Below, one piece after another: positions 3,952 through 10,137 of a DNA stretch of 64,000 bases. The position numbers and the translations under genes are program-made. The DNA lies in the NCBI RefSeq assembly GCF_003030345.1, contig NZ_CP028158.1:2418001-2482000 (forward strand), given 5' to 3'. Position 1 is the stretch's first letter. Every line of letters begins with the position of its first letter. This stretch comes from Plantactinospora sp. BC1 (GTDB lineage: Bacteria; Actinomycetota; Actinomycetes; Mycobacteriales; Micromonosporaceae). Below the pieces are notes generated by a model. The model ran no database searches. It was not told the DNA's origin and saw only the letters and a program-made list of their open reading frames with translations.

Positions 3952-4983
3952 TCAACCGCCGACCGGGTCGGCCGGATAGTCGATGCTGAGGATCTGGTGC
4001 CGGCTCACCGTCCCGACCAGCTCGCCACCCTCGTCGGTCACCCGGGCGTCGTCCGAGTTCGTCCGCAGCAGCACCGCCAGCGCGTCGTAGAGCGACGAGC
4101 CGAGCGGCACGGTCGGCAGCCCGGCGGTGGTGGCGGCGTCCGGCGGGATCGGACGCAGCAGCTCCCGGGTGACCGGGGTGACCGCCAGCCGCCGGATCGC
4201 CCGGTCGGTCCCGACGAACTCCCGGACGAAGGCCGAGGCCGGCTCGCCGAGCAGGGTCGCCGGGCCGGCGTACTGCTCCAGCCTGCCGCCCTGGGAGAGC
4301 ACCACGATCCGGTCACCCAGCCGGACCGCCTCGTCCAGATCGTGGGTGACCAGCACGATCGTCTTGCGTACCTCCGCCTGGAGCCGCAGGAACTCCTCCT
4401 GGAGCCGGGCCCGCGCGATCGGGTCGACGGCCGAGAACGGCTCGTCCATCAGCAGCACCACCGGATCGGCGGCCAGCGCCCGGGCCACCCCGACCCGCTG
4501 CCGCTGGCCGCCGGAGAGTTCGTGCGGATAGCGCGGCCCGAAGGTGGTCGGGTCGAGCCCGACCAGGTCCAGCAGTTCTGCCGTACGGGCCGCGATCCGG
4601 GCCCGGGACCAGCCCGACAGCCGGGGTACGGTGCCGACGTTCGTGGCGATGGTCTGGTGCGGGAAGAGCCCGACGTTCTGGATCACGTAGCCGATCCGCC
4701 GCCGGAGCTGGACCGGGTCGGCCCGGGTGACGTCCTCGTCGCCGAGCAGGATGCGCCCGGAGGTCGGCTCGATCAGCCGATTGATCATGCGGAGCACGGT
4801 GGACTTGCCGCAGCCGGACGGCCCGATCAGCACCACCAGTTCGCCGGCCTTGACCTCCAGGCTCAGCTCGCCGACCGCCACCGTGCCGTCGGGATACTGT
4901 TTGCGTACCTGGTCGAGGGTTATCGCGGCGGCACCCGTGGTGCCGGCGGGCCCGGCGGAACCGGCCTCCGGGGTAACGTCCAC
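3952..4983 (-). CDS. osmoprotectant ABC transporter ATP-binding protein (OpuCA/ProV type)
   Basis: ATPase that would drive uptake of glycine betaine, choline or proline-betaine type solutes. The 343-aa protein has Walker A GPSGCGKST, signature LSGGQRQRVG, Walker B VVLLMDEPFSAVD and the switch His in LVTHDLDEA. A C-terminal part of about 75 residues (DALAVLLRTNSDDARVTDEG) looks like a CBS-type sensor tail, as in OpuCA. The start GTG 4983 has GGAAGGA about five bases upstream. It is transcribed away from its permease genes; in most opuC/proU loci the ATPase gene leads a single operon. Confidence 0.9.
   Translation of the reverse strand: MDVTPEAGSAGPAGTTGAAAITLDQVRKQYPDGTVAVGELSLEVKAGELVVLIGPSGCGKSTVLRMINRLIEPTSGRILLGDEDVTRADPVQLRRRIGYVIQNVGLFPHQTIATNVGTVPRLSGWSRARIAARTAELLDLVGLDPTTFGPRYPHELSGGQRQRVGVARALAADPVVLLMDEPFSAVDPIARARLQEEFLRLQAEVRKTIVLVTHDLDEAVRLGDRIVVLSQGGRLEQYAGPATLLGEPASAFVREFVGTDRAIRRLAVTPVTRELLRPIPPDAATTAGLPTVPLGSSLYDALAVLLRTNSDDARVTDEGGELVGTVSRHQILSIDYPADPVGG
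4974..4979 (+). promoter_or_regulatory. -10 box TAACGT for leaderless permease gene
   Basis: TAACGT ends six bases before ATG 4986 and lies inside the 5' end of the divergent ATPase gene. Confidence 0.4.
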
Positions 4984-4985
4984 GT

Positions 4986-5678
4986 ATGTCCTTCCGGGTG
5001 ATCGACCGGGCGCACCCGGGTAATCCGTGGTTCTCCTGGGACTATGTGCAGGGCAATTCGGAGACCATTCTCGCCGCCCTGCGGGAGCATGCCGCCCTCA
5101 CCGCCCAGGCGGTGTTGATCGCGGCCCTGGTCGCGATCCCGCTCGCCGTGCTGGCGTACTGGTTCCGGCCGCTCACCGGGCCGATTCTCGCACTCTCCGG
5201 CGTGCTGTACACGATCCCCTCGCTGGCGCTCTTCGCCTTCGTCGCACCGTACCTCGGCACCGGGACCACCACGGTGCTGCTCGGACTGGTCCTCTACGCC
5301 CTGCTGCTGATCGTCCGGAACGCGCTGGCCGGGCTCAACCAGGTGCCGGAGGAGGTCCGGGACGCGGCCCAGGGGATGGGGTACGGCCGGTTCGCCCGGC
5401 TGCTCCGGATCGACCTGCCGCTGGCGTTGCCGGGCATCTTCACCGGGCTGCGCCTGGCGACCGTCTCCACGGTGGCCCTGGTCACCGTCGGGGTACTGGT
5501 CGGGCACGGCGGCCTCGGGCAGCTCATCCTCGGCGGATTCCGGAACAACTTCTTCAAAGCCGAGATCATGACCGGGACGCTGCTCTGCGTACTCCTGGCC
5601 CTGGTCCTGGACCTGGTCCTCGCCGGCCTCGGTCGGCTGCTCACGCCGTGGGCCCGCCGTCGCGGAGCCGCAGGATGA
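4986..5678 (+). CDS. osmoprotectant ABC transporter permease 1 (OpuCB/ProW type)
   Basis: Membrane subunit of the betaine/choline-type importer, 230 aa with about six helices. The cytoplasmic EAA-like loop reads NQVPEEVRDAAQGMGYGRFARLL, followed by the family stretch GVLVGHGGLGQLILGGF. Only two bases separate its ATG from the GTG of the divergent ATPase gene, so each promoter must lie in the other gene. An in-frame GTG at 4998 is an alternative start. The second permease follows after 19 bp. Confidence 0.9.
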   Translation: MSFRVIDRAHPGNPWFSWDYVQGNSETILAALREHAALTAQAVLIAALVAIPLAVLAYWFRPLTGPILALSGVLYTIPSLALFAFVAPYLGTGTTTVLLGLVLYALLLIVRNALAGLNQVPEEVRDAAQGMGYGRFARLLRIDLPLALPGIFTGLRLATVSTVALVTVGVLVGHGGLGQLILGGFRNNFFKAEIMTGTLLCVLLALVLDLVLAGLGRLLTPWARRRGAAG

Positions 5679-5697: not shown

Positions 5698-6432
5698 ATG
5701 AACCCGATCGAGCAGGCCGTGGTCTGGCTCAACGACCCGCTGAACTGGACCAATCCCGGCGGGGTCCTCGACCGGCTGGTCGAGCACCTCGGCATCTCCG
5801 CCGCCGCCGTGGCACTCGGTTGCCTGGTCGCCTGGCCGCTCGGGCTCTGGCTCGGGCACACCGGCCGGGGCGGCGGCGCCGTGGTGCTGGTCTCCAACGT
5901 CACGCTGGCGATCCCGACCATCGCGCTGCTCACCATCCTTCCGCTGACCGCGCTCGGCTTCGGCAAGCCGCCGGTGATCATCGCGTTGGCGGTCTTCGCG
6001 GTGCCGCCGCTGCTGGCGAACGCCTACACCGGGATCCGGCAGGTCGATCCGGAGGTGCGGGACGCGGCGCGCGGGATGGGGCTCTCCGGCGGGCAGTTGC
6101 TGCGCCGGGTGGAGTTGCCGCTCGCGGTGCCCTACCTCGCGGCCGGGTTCCGTACCGCCGCCGTGCAGGTGGTGGCGACCGCCGCGCTCGCCTCGTTCGT
6201 CAACGGCGGCGGGCTGGGGCAGATCATCAGCGCCGGGTTCGGGCTCGGCATAGCGGTCGGCGGCGGTCAGATCCTGGCCGGCGGGCTCCTCGTCGCCCTG
6301 CTCGCACTGCTGGTCGAACTGGTCTTCGCGCTGGTGGAACGGCTGGTCACCCCGAGGCCGCTGCGCCGGAACCGGCGCCGGACCATCCGGCGGGCCGACC
6401 AGCGGGCGGCGGCGGCGATCACCGGCTCCTGA
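5698..6432 (+). CDS. osmoprotectant ABC transporter permease 2 (OpuCD/ProW type)
   Basis: Second permease of the importer, 244 aa with about six helices. The ATPase-contact loop reads RQVDPEVRDAARGMGLSGG, and the C-terminus is strongly basic (RRNRRRTIRRADQR), placing it inside. A GAGAGGTGAG ribosome site precedes ATG 5698. Two different permeases plus a lipoprotein binding protein match the OpuC layout rather than the single-permease OpuA. Confidence 0.9.
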   Translation: MNPIEQAVVWLNDPLNWTNPGGVLDRLVEHLGISAAAVALGCLVAWPLGLWLGHTGRGGGAVVLVSNVTLAIPTIALLTILPLTALGFGKPPVIIALAVFAVPPLLANAYTGIRQVDPEVRDAARGMGLSGGQLLRRVELPLAVPYLAAGFRTAAVQVVATAALASFVNGGGLGQIISAGFGLGIAVGGGQILAGGLLVALLALLVELVFALVERLVTPRPLRRNRRRTIRRADQRAAAAITGS

Positions 6433-6606: not shown

Positions 6607-6727
6607 TGTCGTACCAGACGGGAGGATGTTTCGTGAGTACTCGCGGGCGGCCGTCCTGTCCTGTCGCCCGTCGGACACGCGGCCGGCCCACCCGGGCCGC
6701 GCCGGGACACAGGAGGCGGGCGTTTTC

Positions 6728-7741
6728 ATGCGTACACGTACACGTCTGGCAGTCGGCGCCGCCGGTGCCGTCGTCGCGGCCGGTTTTCTCGCCGGCTGCG
6801 GTGGAGCCGGCTCGTCCGGCACCCAGGCCCCGGCAACCGGGGCGCAGGGCGCCGGTTGCGCACCGGTGGCCGGATCCAGCCTGGTCGTGCTCGACGACGA
6901 CAAGAAGCTCCAGAACACCGACAACATCATCCCGGCCATCAACAGCAAGGTGGCCCAGCCGCAGTTGGTCGCGGCCCTGGACAAGGTCTCGGACAGCCTC
7001 GACACCAGCAAGCTGATCGGGCTGAACAAGGCGGTCGACGTCGACCGCAAGACCCCGAAGGTGGCCGCCGAGGAGTTCGCCTCGGCCAACAACCTCACCG
7101 CCGGCATCCCGACCGGTGGCACCGGCTCGATCACCGTCGGCGCGGCCAACTTCAGCGAGAACCAGACCCTGGGCGAGCTGTACCGGATCGCCCTCACCGC
7201 CGCCGGCTACCAGGTCAAGGTCCAGCAGATCGGCAACCGCGAACTCTACGAGCCGGCGCTGGAGAAGGGCGACATCCAGGTCGTTCCGGAGTACGCGGCG
7301 ACGATGGCGGACTTCCTGAACAACAAGGTGAACGCGAAGGGCGGGGCCACCCCGCCGCCGATCTCCTCCCCGGATCTCAACCAGACCGTGAGCGGGCTGA
7401 AGGCGGCCGGTGAGAAGGTCGGCATCACCTTCGGCAAGCCGTCGGCGGCCCAGGACCAGAACGCGTTCGCGGTCACCAAGGAGTTCGCCGACAAGTACGG
7501 CGTCCGCACCCTCAGCGAGCTGGCAGCGAAGTGCTCCGGCTCGGCGACCGTACTGGGCGGCCCGCCGGAGTGCCCGCAGCGGCCGAAGTGCCAGGCCGGG
7601 CTGGTCCAGGTCTACAACTTCAACGCCGGCCGGTTCGACTCGCTCGACGCCGGTGGTCCGCAGACCAAGTCGGCGCTGACCAGCGGCACGATCAGCGTCG
7701 GGTTGGTCTTCTCCTCCGACGGCGCACTCGCCACGAGCTGA
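6728..7741 (+). CDS. osmoprotectant-binding lipoprotein (OpuCC/OsmF family), permuted domain order
   Basis: Substrate-binding protein of the importer. A lipoprotein signal ends in LAGC with Cys24 as lipid anchor. Residues about 52-125 (LVVLDDDKKLQNTDN to TPKVAAEEF) match what is normally the C-terminal end of the family, while residues from about 135 (ITVGAANFSENQTLGELY, then ELYEPALEKGDIQVVPEY) match the normal N-terminus. The protein ends at LVFSSDGALATS, just where the C-terminal piece would normally follow. It therefore reads as a circular permutation. AGGAGG before ATG 6728 sets the start; 337 aa. Confidence 0.88.
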   Translation: MRTRTRLAVGAAGAVVAAGFLAGCGGAGSSGTQAPATGAQGAGCAPVAGSSLVVLDDDKKLQNTDNIIPAINSKVAQPQLVAALDKVSDSLDTSKLIGLNKAVDVDRKTPKVAAEEFASANNLTAGIPTGGTGSITVGAANFSENQTLGELYRIALTAAGYQVKVQQIGNRELYEPALEKGDIQVVPEYAATMADFLNNKVNAKGGATPPPISSPDLNQTVSGLKAAGEKVGITFGKPSAAQDQNAFAVTKEFADKYGVRTLSELAAKCSGSATVLGGPPECPQRPKCQAGLVQVYNFNAGRFDSLDAGGPQTKSALTSGTISVGLVFSSDGALATS

Positions 7742-7791
7742 CGAGCGATGCCCGGGGGCCGCAGCTTCCGGGTGCGAGCGGTGGAACCGAC

Positions 7792-7834
7792 CGGGGCCGG
7801 TCGACGGCAGTGCACGTGCCGTCGACCGGCCCCG
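7792..7834 (+). terminator. 17-bp stem-loop after the binding-protein gene
   Basis: Arms 7792-7808 and 7818-7834 are perfectly complementary around a 9-nt loop, about 50 bp after the stop codon. It is a strong terminator of the transporter operon despite lacking a T tract. Confidence 0.7.
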
Positions 7835-7873
7835 TACGCTGGCGCCGCCATTTCCGTCCCCGGCAACTGTGGG

Positions 7874-7879
7874 TAGGCT
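7874..7879 (+). promoter_or_regulatory. -10 box TAGGCT for leaderless gene at 7888
   Basis: TAGGCT ends eight bases before the ATG, with no ribosome-binding site between. Confidence 0.55.
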
Positions 7880-7887
7880 CGACTGCC

Positions 7888-10137
7888 ATGTCAGCCCGCG
7901 AGGCCTCCGAGGAAACCCGCCGTCGGCCGCTGCTGACCGTACTCTTCTGGGTCGGGGTGGGGTTGGCTCCGCTGGCCGCCCTGTTACTGCTGGTCGGGCA
8001 GGGGAACGGGCCGCTGCGGATCGCGGCGGTGCTCGCCGTGTTGGCGGTCGTACTCATCGGACTGTCGATCACGTTGCGTGGCGACTCGGAGGGTGTCCGG
8101 CTGGACCTGGAGGAGACCCTCATCGAGGAACTCGACGACCTGCGGGGCGAGCTGCGCAACGACATCGCCACGGCCGCCCGCGCCACGCACAAGGCGTTCG
8201 GCGAGAAGCTGGAGGTCGTCCAGGGCAACGTCGAGGCGCTGCGTGGCCAGATCGAGGCCGTCCGGGCTGCCGCCGCCGTACCGGGTGCCTCCGCTCCGGC
8301 CGCCGCGACCGGTGCGGCCGCCACGGCGGCGGTGGTCGGTGGCGCGGCCGGTTCCGCCAGCGTGCCCGCCGGGCGGGCGGCGGCCGAGCCGGGCGGGAGC
8401 GGCTGGGCCGGCACCGATCCGGGCCGGACCGGTCGGGTGCCGGACGAGCCTGCCTCGGCAGGCTGGGCGCCGGGCGGACCGGGCCGGGAGGGTTCCGGCG
8501 CCCGCCCCGACGGGCCACGCCGAGCGGGAAGCGGTCCGGCTCCGTCGCACGCCGCAGGTTCGCCGCACGCCGTGGGTCCGTCGCATGCGGCGGGTCCCTC
8601 CCACGCCGCCGGTCCGTCGCATGCTGCGGGTCCGGCGCACTCGGTGGACCAGGGCGACACCGGCGAGTTCCACGGTGGGCCGGGCGGCGGCTACCAGGGT
8701 GCTGCCGGCTACCGAGGCGGCAGTTATCCGGGGAGCGGCCGTCCCGACGGTGACCGGACCGGGCCGGGCCGGGGGCGGTACGGCCGGGACGAGGGCGCGG
8801 CGGCTGAGCCCGGGCAGTACGGCCACTCGTGGGCGCAGGGCGCCCGGCCGCGCGGCCCGGGCGGGATGGCGGGCAACCCGGGTGGCGTCTCCGGGCCCCC
8901 GCTCGGCCGGGGCGTGGTACGGCACACCGAGACCGTGCAGGTGACCACCCGGCAGACCATCGTCGGCGGGCACGAGGACGACGACCATGCCGGCTACGGC
9001 GGCGGCACCTACGGTGGCGGTGTCTACGGCGGCGGCGCCCAGCCGGGCGGCTACGGCAACGGCGGCTACGGCGGCGCCGGCCAGCCCGGCGGCTACGACG
9101 GTTACGGCAGCCAGGCTGGCTACGACGGCCAGGCTGGCGGCTACGGCGACGGTGGCCAGCGAGGCGGCTACGGCGCCGCCCAGCCCGGTGGCACCTACGG
9201 CGGTGGCACCTACGGTGGCGGCACCTACGGCGGTGGCGCCTACGGCGGTGGCGCCTACGGTGGCGGCGAGGAGCCGGCCGGTGGCCCGGGTCGAGGCGGT
9301 GACGGGCGTCGGGGTGGTGCCGGCCACGCCGGCGGCAGCGCCTACAACGGCGGCGGCAGCGGCTACGGGGGCGGCCCCGAGCGGGACGGGCGCGACGGGG
9401 ACCCGGACGACTGGCGGCCGGCGCAGGGGCGGCAGGCCGCCGAGCCCGCCGACGAGGGGCGGGACGGACGCCGGACCGGCGGAGACGGCGGCTGGCGTGG
9501 CCGTTCCGCCGACCCGGATCCGGATCCGGGGATCGGCGACCCGGCCGACGACTCGTACTGGGCCGAACTGCGGGCCGGCGACCGCTGGACCTCGGTACGC
9601 AGCGACGACCGTGGCCGCGAGGTCCGGATGGGCGAGCGGCGGGCGTCGATGCGCTCCGACGAGTCGGGTACCGAGCTGCGGGTCGAGGACCGCTGGGCGG
9701 AGATGCGCCGGGAGGAGCCGGGGCCGGGCGAGGACCGGCGGGCGGGTCGCCAGTGGTCGGAGTCCCGGGACGACGACCGGCGCTCCGAGGGTCAGAGCGG
9801 TCAGCGCGGTCAGAGCGGTCGCAGCGGTCAGCGCGGTCAGCGCGGTTCCGGCGGGTGGGCTGCCGACGACGCCGTCCCGCGCGGCGATGCTGGCGACTCC
9901 GGCGACGGTCGGGGCTGGGAGCGGTCCGGGGGTGCGCCGGCGCTGCCCGCCGGAGGTGTGGACCCGGCGTCCGTCTGGGGTCCACCGCGACAGGAGCCCG
10001 AGCCGGAGCCGGCCCGGCGGGGGCGGCGGCACCGGGACGACGAGGAGTACGGCTACCCGCCGCTGGACGAGGCGCCCCGGGCCGGCGGTACCCGACGGTC
10101 GGAGTACGGCTACCCCGCCGAGGGCGACTGGCGCTGA
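7888..10137 (+). CDS. large membrane-anchored protein with Gly/Tyr-rich low-complexity tail
   Basis: A 749-aa protein of unknown function. Two hydrophobic helices (residues 15-36 and 42-60) are followed by a coiled-coil-like stretch (about 66-130: EETLIEELDDLRGELRND). Next come Pro/Gly/Ala-rich sequence, an SHAAGP repeat (about 225-250), a Gly-Tyr region with many YGGG units (about 370-460), and a highly charged Arg/Asp/Gln part with GQSG/GQRG repeats. The tail is probably disordered and cytoplasmic. Codon 33 (7984-7986) is the rare leucine codon TTA. The leaderless TAGGCT box supports this start over upstream ones. Confidence 0.75.
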   Translation: MSAREASEETRRRPLLTVLFWVGVGLAPLAALLLLVGQGNGPLRIAAVLAVLAVVLIGLSITLRGDSEGVRLDLEETLIEELDDLRGELRNDIATAARATHKAFGEKLEVVQGNVEALRGQIEAVRAAAAVPGASAPAAATGAAATAAVVGGAAGSASVPAGRAAAEPGGSGWAGTDPGRTGRVPDEPASAGWAPGGPGREGSGARPDGPRRAGSGPAPSHAAGSPHAVGPSHAAGPSHAAGPSHAAGPAHSVDQGDTGEFHGGPGGGYQGAAGYRGGSYPGSGRPDGDRTGPGRGRYGRDEGAAAEPGQYGHSWAQGARPRGPGGMAGNPGGVSGPPLGRGVVRHTETVQVTTRQTIVGGHEDDDHAGYGGGTYGGGVYGGGAQPGGYGNGGYGGAGQPGGYDGYGSQAGYDGQAGGYGDGGQRGGYGAAQPGGTYGGGTYGGGTYGGGAYGGGAYGGGEEPAGGPGRGGDGRRGGAGHAGGSAYNGGGSGYGGGPERDGRDGDPDDWRPAQGRQAAEPADEGRDGRRTGGDGGWRGRSADPDPDPGIGDPADDSYWAELRAGDRWTSVRSDDRGREVRMGERRASMRSDESGTELRVEDRWAEMRREEPGPGEDRRAGRQWSESRDDDRRSEGQSGQRGQSGRSGQRGQRGSGGWAADDAVPRGDAGDSGDGRGWERSGGAPALPAGGVDPASVWGPPRQEPEPEPARRGRRHRDDEEYGYPPLDEAPRAGGTRRSEYGYPAEGDWR

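Follow-up and report, generated by a model that had tools for sequence, protein, structure and literature searches.

Introduction

The closest described relatives of the protein studied here are the binding proteins OsmF, OpuCC and AfProX (1SW1, 4WEP, 3R6U), with which it shares the same four sequence segments, adjoining importer genes, part of the ligand pocket and the lipoprotein anchor, as in other Gram-positives. Their segments are arranged in the order A-B-D-C, whereas those of the present protein are arranged C-A-B-D, and it differs further by two extra cysteines, Cys44 and Cys269, and by an aromatic cage that is half conserved.

Natural circular permutation is usually known as a single old oddity per family. 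The lipoprotein TpMglB-2 (Tp0684) of Treponema pallidum is a natural circularly permuted two-lobed sugar-binding protein, named “Type Ic”, with relatives of this topology in other bacteria, and its authors link the topology to membrane tethering (PMC4990184). Circular permutation is common to TpMglB-2 and the present protein, but TpMglB-2 has the type I sugar-binding fold, with a permutation in the N-lobe, a fourth hinge crossing and, in the parts of that article used here, one reported topology, whereas the PF04069 proteins described below are cut in lobe 2, at three sites. The type I sugar-binding fold was not found in the present protein, for which PF04069 was the only family above cut-off and the best Foldseek fold matches were AfProX and its relatives. 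The CPSARST structure scan found permutation relations among 2B4L, 1R9L and 1SW1, and also to molybdate-binding proteins and CysB (PMC2395249, excerpts); these relations are structural and concern distant proteins (<24% identity). Another solved relative is the ergothioneine-binding domain EgtUC, which has the canonical order in a permease-fused chain and a full aromatic cage (PMC9732360, excerpts).

A search of the open-access literature, with subscription papers mostly outside its scope, returned no report of permuted OsmF-type proteins or of their recurrence. The string “permut” is absent from the text of the L. lactis OpuAC paper (PMC2861598), as are “betaine” and “periplasmic” from a permutation-finding preprint (PMC12667903). 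Permuted receptors are already known as a kind; what seems new is that permutation recurs here, that the anchor is shifted to lobe 2 each time, and that a pair of cysteines has been added.

Results

The Importer Locus and the Binding-Protein Gene

The window, a stretch of 64,000 nucleotides from Plantactinospora sp. BC1, contains an ABC-importer locus with the following features:

3952..4983, minus strand: ABC transporter ATPase, divergent (PF00005, E 6e-36), with a weak C-terminal CBS match below cut-off
4986..5678, plus strand: ABC permease, BPD_transp_1 (PF00528, E 4e-18)
5698..6432, plus strand: ABC permease, BPD_transp_1 (PF00528, E 2e-24)
6711..6716, plus strand: AGGAGG, Shine-Dalgarno-like by sequence reading, 11 bases to the ATG
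6728..7741, plus strand: gene of the circularly permuted OsmF-type substrate-binding lipoprotein, 337 aa (PF04069 in two pieces, order swapped)
6728..6799, plus strand: signal peptide with lipobox LAGC, residues 1–24, lipid-anchor Cys24 (sequence; Cys24 in 81/81 aligned permutants)
6800..6877, plus strand: linker, residues 25–50, with the permutant-specific Cys44 (codon 6857–6859; in 81/81 and 97/97; mean pLDDT of residues 41–50, 92)
6878..7093, plus strand: displaced C-terminal segment, residues 51–122 (Pfam OpuAC 188–255; Pfam and PDB-chain matches)
7094..7126, plus strand: Gly-rich joining linker from the old C terminus to the old N terminus, residues 123–133
7127..7738, plus strand: original N-terminal part, from the start of lobe 1 through lobe 2, residues 134–337 (Pfam OpuAC 2–184; Pfam and PDB-chain matches)
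7532..7534, plus strand: Cys269 codon, proposed disulfide partner of Cys44 (both cysteines in 97/97 type-1 permutants, 0/63 others)
7571..7591, plus strand: Cys282 ... Cys288 pair (ECPxRxxC), also present in many canonical relatives

The open reading frame extends from the ATG at 6728 to the stop codon at 7739–7741, where a sequence-only reading of this DNA had placed it, and the motifs quoted in that reading were found at residues 52–60 (LVVLDDDKK), at residues 135–142 (ITVGAANF) and at the protein end (SDGALATS). The displaced piece had been described as coming right after the lipid anchor; the order was correct, but the contact is not direct, as 27 linker residues separate Cys24 from LVVL. 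The lipobox, with its cysteine kept in all the aligned permutants, marks the product as a lipoprotein. Close relatives are found in Plantactinospora (P. endophytica, L012, and P. mayteni, L085; 96% identity).

The ATPase gene and the two permease genes are linked to the substrate-binding protein (SBP) gene, as in OsmF-type importers. The segment order C-A-B-D is called type 1 (CP1) hereafter, and the order A-B-D-C canonical. The arrangement ATPase(divergent)-permease-permease-SBP was present in exact form in 93 of the 97 CP1 loci; among 26 canonical loci it was present in 8, including that of the canonical sister L112. Since CP1 and some canonical loci, L112 among them, have this arrangement in common, the permutation probably occurred in place. 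In the window the ATPase and the first permease are divergent, with two bases between their listed start codons (3952–4986). The next long open reading frame (7531–10137, plus strand) encodes a membrane-like stretch, then a very long Gly/Tyr-rich, charged and repetitive tail.

Swapped Order of the Sequence Segments

The 337-aa protein belongs to PF04069, with 138.6 bits against a gathering score of 21.2. The usual linear order of the family is absent: profile positions 188–255 of Pfam OpuAC aligned with residues 52–118, ahead of positions 2–184 at residues 134–335, and the two pieces scored apart reached E-values of 3e-10 and 9e-29. The solved chains gave the same picture. AfProX (1SW1) 7–164 aligned with residues 134–300 and AfProX 200–270 with residues 51–120, while positions 229–299 of an OpuCC/OpuBC chain aligned with residues 51–119. 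The swap was also observed against 5TEU and an EgtUC chain in full alignments, and against OpuCC/OpuBC and 3PPN over the best stretch. The sister L112, in contrast, has a single 2–256 match to PF04069 and was matched end to end, in one stretch, by the AfProX, Lmo1422 and OsmF (4WEP) chains. At the cut almost nothing was lost, as seen by comparing GLVFSSDGGVAAFNLVVLTDDKKLQNADN in L112 with the end of the window protein, GLVFSSDGALATS, and the start of its folded part, SSLVVLDDDKKLQNTDN.

The sequence-only reading had proposed a circular permutation of the OpuAC/OsmF fold, to be abandoned if residues 52–125 did not correspond to the C-terminal segment of OpuCC/OsmF proteins. The swapped matches to Pfam and to the solved chains show that they do correspond. 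Judged by these alignments, the lipoprotein is an OsmF-type binding protein with a clean circular permutation. The Foldseek comparison with AfProX covered 215 aligned columns with a TMq of 0.42, values that a sequential aligner should give for a permutant but that do not constitute proof. None of the 27 PDB sequences matched by a profile of 42 permutants had the permuted order.

Within its own genome, the permuted gene has its C-segment match upstream of its N-segment match. The only two further PF04069 matches were weak and located elsewhere (profile 31–227 and 23–131), so no displaced copy follows the stop codon; a second C-segment downstream was searched for with the profile in this genome, and there was none.

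Lobes, Hinge Strands and the Cysteine Pair

The published lobe limits of EgtUC are 233–331 and 445–506 for D1 and 341–432 for D2 (PMC9732360). In our alignment residue numbers are obtained by adding 229 to the chain position, as verified on N339, Y341, F293 and R379. Transferred to the window protein, linker 1 corresponds to about residues 236–244, D2 to residues 245–337 plus 51–54, and linker 2 to residues 55–66. The CP1 cut maps within lobe 2, 4–9 residues before linker 2, so that the chain would now begin in lobe 2 with neither linker lost. The idea of a single remaining hinge strand was dropped on this mapping. Of the two structural consequences expected earlier, the move of the lipid anchor follows from the protein anatomy, and the change of hinge order would not occur.

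Cys44 lies in the new N-terminal tail and Cys269 in the loop between segments B and D, both on lobe 2 or on the tail leading into it according to the EgtUC mapping. They were found together in all 97 CP1 loci and in none of 63 other proteins (45 canonical, 16 CP2, 2 CP3; the f54 proteins L173–L208 are not in this count), although in three of these an unrelated cysteine lies close to the first position. In the AlphaFold2 model of the window protein (mean pLDDT 81, pTM 0.69) residues 1–36 were below 50 and residues 41–50 had a mean pLDDT of 92, and this high confidence fits a docked tail in the model. We infer that a Cys44–Cys269 disulfide would staple the loose new N-terminal end, and the fixed pair looks like a compensation for the permutation.

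Distribution and Conservation

CP1 was found in 79 of 101 Micromonosporaceae genomes (hand count; 78 of full length and one truncated at the end of a contig). A match of any kind was present in 88 genomes, nine of which had only canonical or weak relatives, and 13 were without a match. In the class survey of 296 genomes, in which up to seven candidates per genome were scored and counts are lower bounds, CP1 was present in at least 15 genomes, at least 12 of them outside the Micromonosporaceae; among the matches listed, these belonged to families f10 (six), f30 (four) and f41 (two). Permuted and canonical orders are thus both present in the actinobacterial homologues, whose survey had been suggested by the sequence-only reading, and two genomes (G037 and G097) have a permuted gene together with a canonical paralogue. 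One Micromonosporaceae genome (G015) has two CP1 copies (C3:2034151-2035134 and 528904-529887). A 184-aa open frame in G534 (C22:6459-7004, minus strand) aligns to a canonical OsmF-type protein over its later half only and is perhaps a remnant or a split gene. On plasmids, 300 records matched, and the only one covering at least 80% of the query, H1 (L152), has the canonical order.

The dN/dS ratios against two Plantactinospora relatives were 0.11 and 0.14 (Nei-Gojobori, own script). Cys24, Cys44, Cys269, Cys282 and Cys288 were present in 81/81 aligned permutants, and the pocket motifs of L112 (QNAFAV, ADN/TDN, PEY and PPECPxR) are retained in the permutant. A pseudogene is ruled out by the dN/dS ratios and the invariant residues.

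Two Other Cut Sites

Loci with unusual match ranges were picked deliberately and read by segment order, so that the following counts are not frequencies; a match had to run from the C- into the A-segment and past residue 250, a selection that favours cuts in lobe 2. Among 140 open reading frames with all segments, 97 had the order C-A-B-D, 15 D-C-A-B (CP2), 2 D''-C-A-B-D' (CP3) and 26 A-B-D-C. The 81 frames from loci L092 on comprised 17 CP1, 16 CP2, 2 CP3 and 45 canonical, plus L153, a CP3-like frame whose first piece was missed by the segment models and whose order was read by eye, in agreement with its other matches. The Pfam ranges accord with these orders: in the best stretches, OpuAC 114–256 was located at residues 58–191 of L106 (CP2), 2–113 at 196–323 of L134 (CP2), 2–145 at 159–312 of L133 (CP3) and 4–145 at 166–322 of L153.

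In the numbering of the window protein the cuts are at about 337/51 (CP1), 268/271 (CP2) and 301/303 (CP3). All three fall in lobe 2 of the EgtUC alignment, and each would consequently shift the lipid anchor from lobe 1 to lobe 2. No cut in lobe 1 stood out among the matches listed in the Micromonosporaceae, class and further surveys (the last with up to five candidates scored per genome, giving lower bounds). All three types have short joins, with 12–17 residues between segment models in the rows listed, and most of these joins are Gly-rich. Seven rows were missed by a lipobox regular expression: L141 and L144 are truncated at contig ends, and in the other five a cysteine resembling that of a lipobox can be made out by eye. 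The shortest gap that the expression gave for CP1, 6 residues, is probably due to Cys44 and was not used.

The genomes G692 and G573, two of 36 of one order, have the CP3 form. Cousins of the same family have the canonical order and match its two pieces with identities of up to 73% and 71%; in the nearest of these cousins the two pieces abut, and the signal peptides are alike by eye. This is a case of recent permutation. The CP3-type L153/L173 and L174, with their close canonical cousins, are good material on how permutation arises.

Duplication is a standard route to circular permutation (PMC3320104, excerpts). Tandem canonical OsmF-type SBP genes, head to tail in one operon, were observed at L210:3467-5366 and L209:3889-6032 (both minus strand), and in L210 the stop-to-stop frames overlap by 20 bases; a permutation by duplication could start from such genes. 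No frame scored for segment order had the duplicated arrangement of an intermediate, such as ABDCABDC. Two f54 genomes encode proteins in which PG_binding_1 and polysaccharide deacetylase domains are joined to an OsmF-type domain of CP2 order (L203:2848-4848, plus strand; L204:2259-4259, minus strand); the domains of L203 were assigned by Pfam, its segment order and L204 by eye.

Number of Permutation Events

In a tree of 70 re-cut rows CP1 formed one clade (98/95), as did CP3 (100/97), and CP2 did not. A single clade of all permutants, as expected from one event, was rejected on this tree (p 1e-67), and so was a single CP2 event (p 6e-8). The larger tree had 115 rows (70 canonical, 24 CP1, 17 CP2, 4 CP3). 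CP1 was again one clade (99/99), nested among canonical relatives, and the well-supported branches forced five changes to CP2 and two to CP3, nine changes being needed overall. The test groups were named after the tree had been seen and the program flags long branches, which bears on the count of events. The four CP3 rows as one clade were rejected (p 1e-108), as were a clade of the Actinomycetes CP2 with f47 (p 8e-67) and one of L143 with f47 (p 0.0014). Grouping the f47 and f88 CP2 rows was borderline (p 0.036, and 0.076 on the smaller tree), and one event for L173 and L174 was not rejected (p 0.32). L203 and L204, on a long branch, were outside the clade tests. With an ancestral canonical order and rare reversions, we count at least six permutation events: CP1, CP2 in Actinomycetes, CP2 in f47/f88, L143, CP3 in f112 and CP3 in f54.

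The Ligand Pocket

The cage residues F293, Y341, Y419 and Y443 of EgtUC correspond to Y189, N245, F328 and D65 of the window protein. Two of the four are aromatic, short of the aromatic cage of the cluster F-III quaternary-amine binding proteins. EgtUC T296 and R379 correspond to T192 and R285, and K242 lies opposite about A140. D65, N245, Y189 and R285 were invariant in a 42-row alignment. The OsmF equivalog model (NF049931, NCBIfam) gave 63.3 bits against its cut-off of 400. The name “osmoprotectant” of the sequence-only reading thus finds no support in the pocket residues, in which the betaine cage is half conserved. A true receptor for betaine or choline is rather unlikely: the family, the operon, T192, R285 and the aromatic Y189 and F328 speak for it, against which stand the replacement of Y341 and Y443 by N245 and D65, the position of K242 and the equivalog score. 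Our guess would be a cationic ligand other than the classical betaines.

Discussion

Taken as a whole, the observations are very probably explained by a permuted lipid-anchored SBP of a PF04069-family importer, one of several independent permutations in Actinomycetota, at three cut sites that map to lobe 2. The gene product would be the lipid-anchored SBP of an OsmF-type ABC importer in which a short Gly-rich linker joins the old C and N termini, the new ends lying in lobe 2, shortly ahead of the second hinge strand. It would fold into the two lobes normal for a type II binding protein, retain both hinge strands and close on its ligand in the manner of its relatives. The lipid anchor would now lead into lobe 2 instead of lobe 1, and a Cys44–Cys269 disulfide may pin the new N-terminal tail to lobe 2. 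Such a gene could have originated by duplication, in place, of the gene or of a segment, with subsequent loss of the redundant parts.

What drove these permutations is a separate matter. It has nearly an even chance of being neutral, with duplication and trimming tolerated because the termini of this fold are close together, the cuts falling in exposed loops and the shift of the anchor being coincidental. The cuts do lie between conserved segments, the joins are uniformly short, and with few events, in loci whose selection itself favoured lobe 2, the common location could be due to chance. Neutrality fits less well with CP2 groups that are not one clade (five on the 115-row tree, three apart by test) and yet share one junction, and with a new cysteine pair fixed throughout CP1. 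We propose only tentatively, as the somewhat less probable view, that the PF04069 family in Actinomycetota is an adaptive hot spot of permutation, with at least six events at three sites, the anchor moved from lobe 1 to lobe 2 in every case and disulfide repair in CP1. In this hypothesis selection would have converged on where the tether sits with respect to the permease, and not on the ligand.

The number of events would be smaller if the permuted form were ancestral in part of the family and the nearby canonical relatives were reversions, as the changes on the tree need a root for their orientation and some inner branches are weak. This is improbable in view of the absence of the permuted order from the matched PDB sequences, the end-to-end matches of canonical L112 to solved chains, and the canonical rows found beside most of the permuted groups in the tree. 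A swap of pieces is classically taken to indicate misassembly, but an assembly or frame artefact, or a decayed gene, has practically no chance of being the explanation given the dN/dS ratios and the same order in many independent assemblies, including the single-contig G000, G004 and G009, which refute an artefact for type 1; its presence in 79/101 Micromonosporaceae genomes likewise means that the order is due neither to chance nor to assembly error.

The reading as a permuted receptor, made from the sequence alone, was right and the finding is larger than stated at the time, with a conserved permuted receptor whose family seems to have undergone permutation several times, at three sites. In the case with canonical cousins at up to 73% identity, a comparison is possible between two versions of almost the same protein, one permuted and one not, and the questions of how permutation arises, what it costs and whether cysteines or linkers compensate for it become testable. 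The permutants are ready-made for biosensor design, in which the family is already used (iNicSnFR and iAChSnFR chains). Family tools that assume a linear order split or underscore the permuted proteins. Rewiring that appears to recur in this way points to a kind of protein in which permutation is tolerated and may even be favoured.
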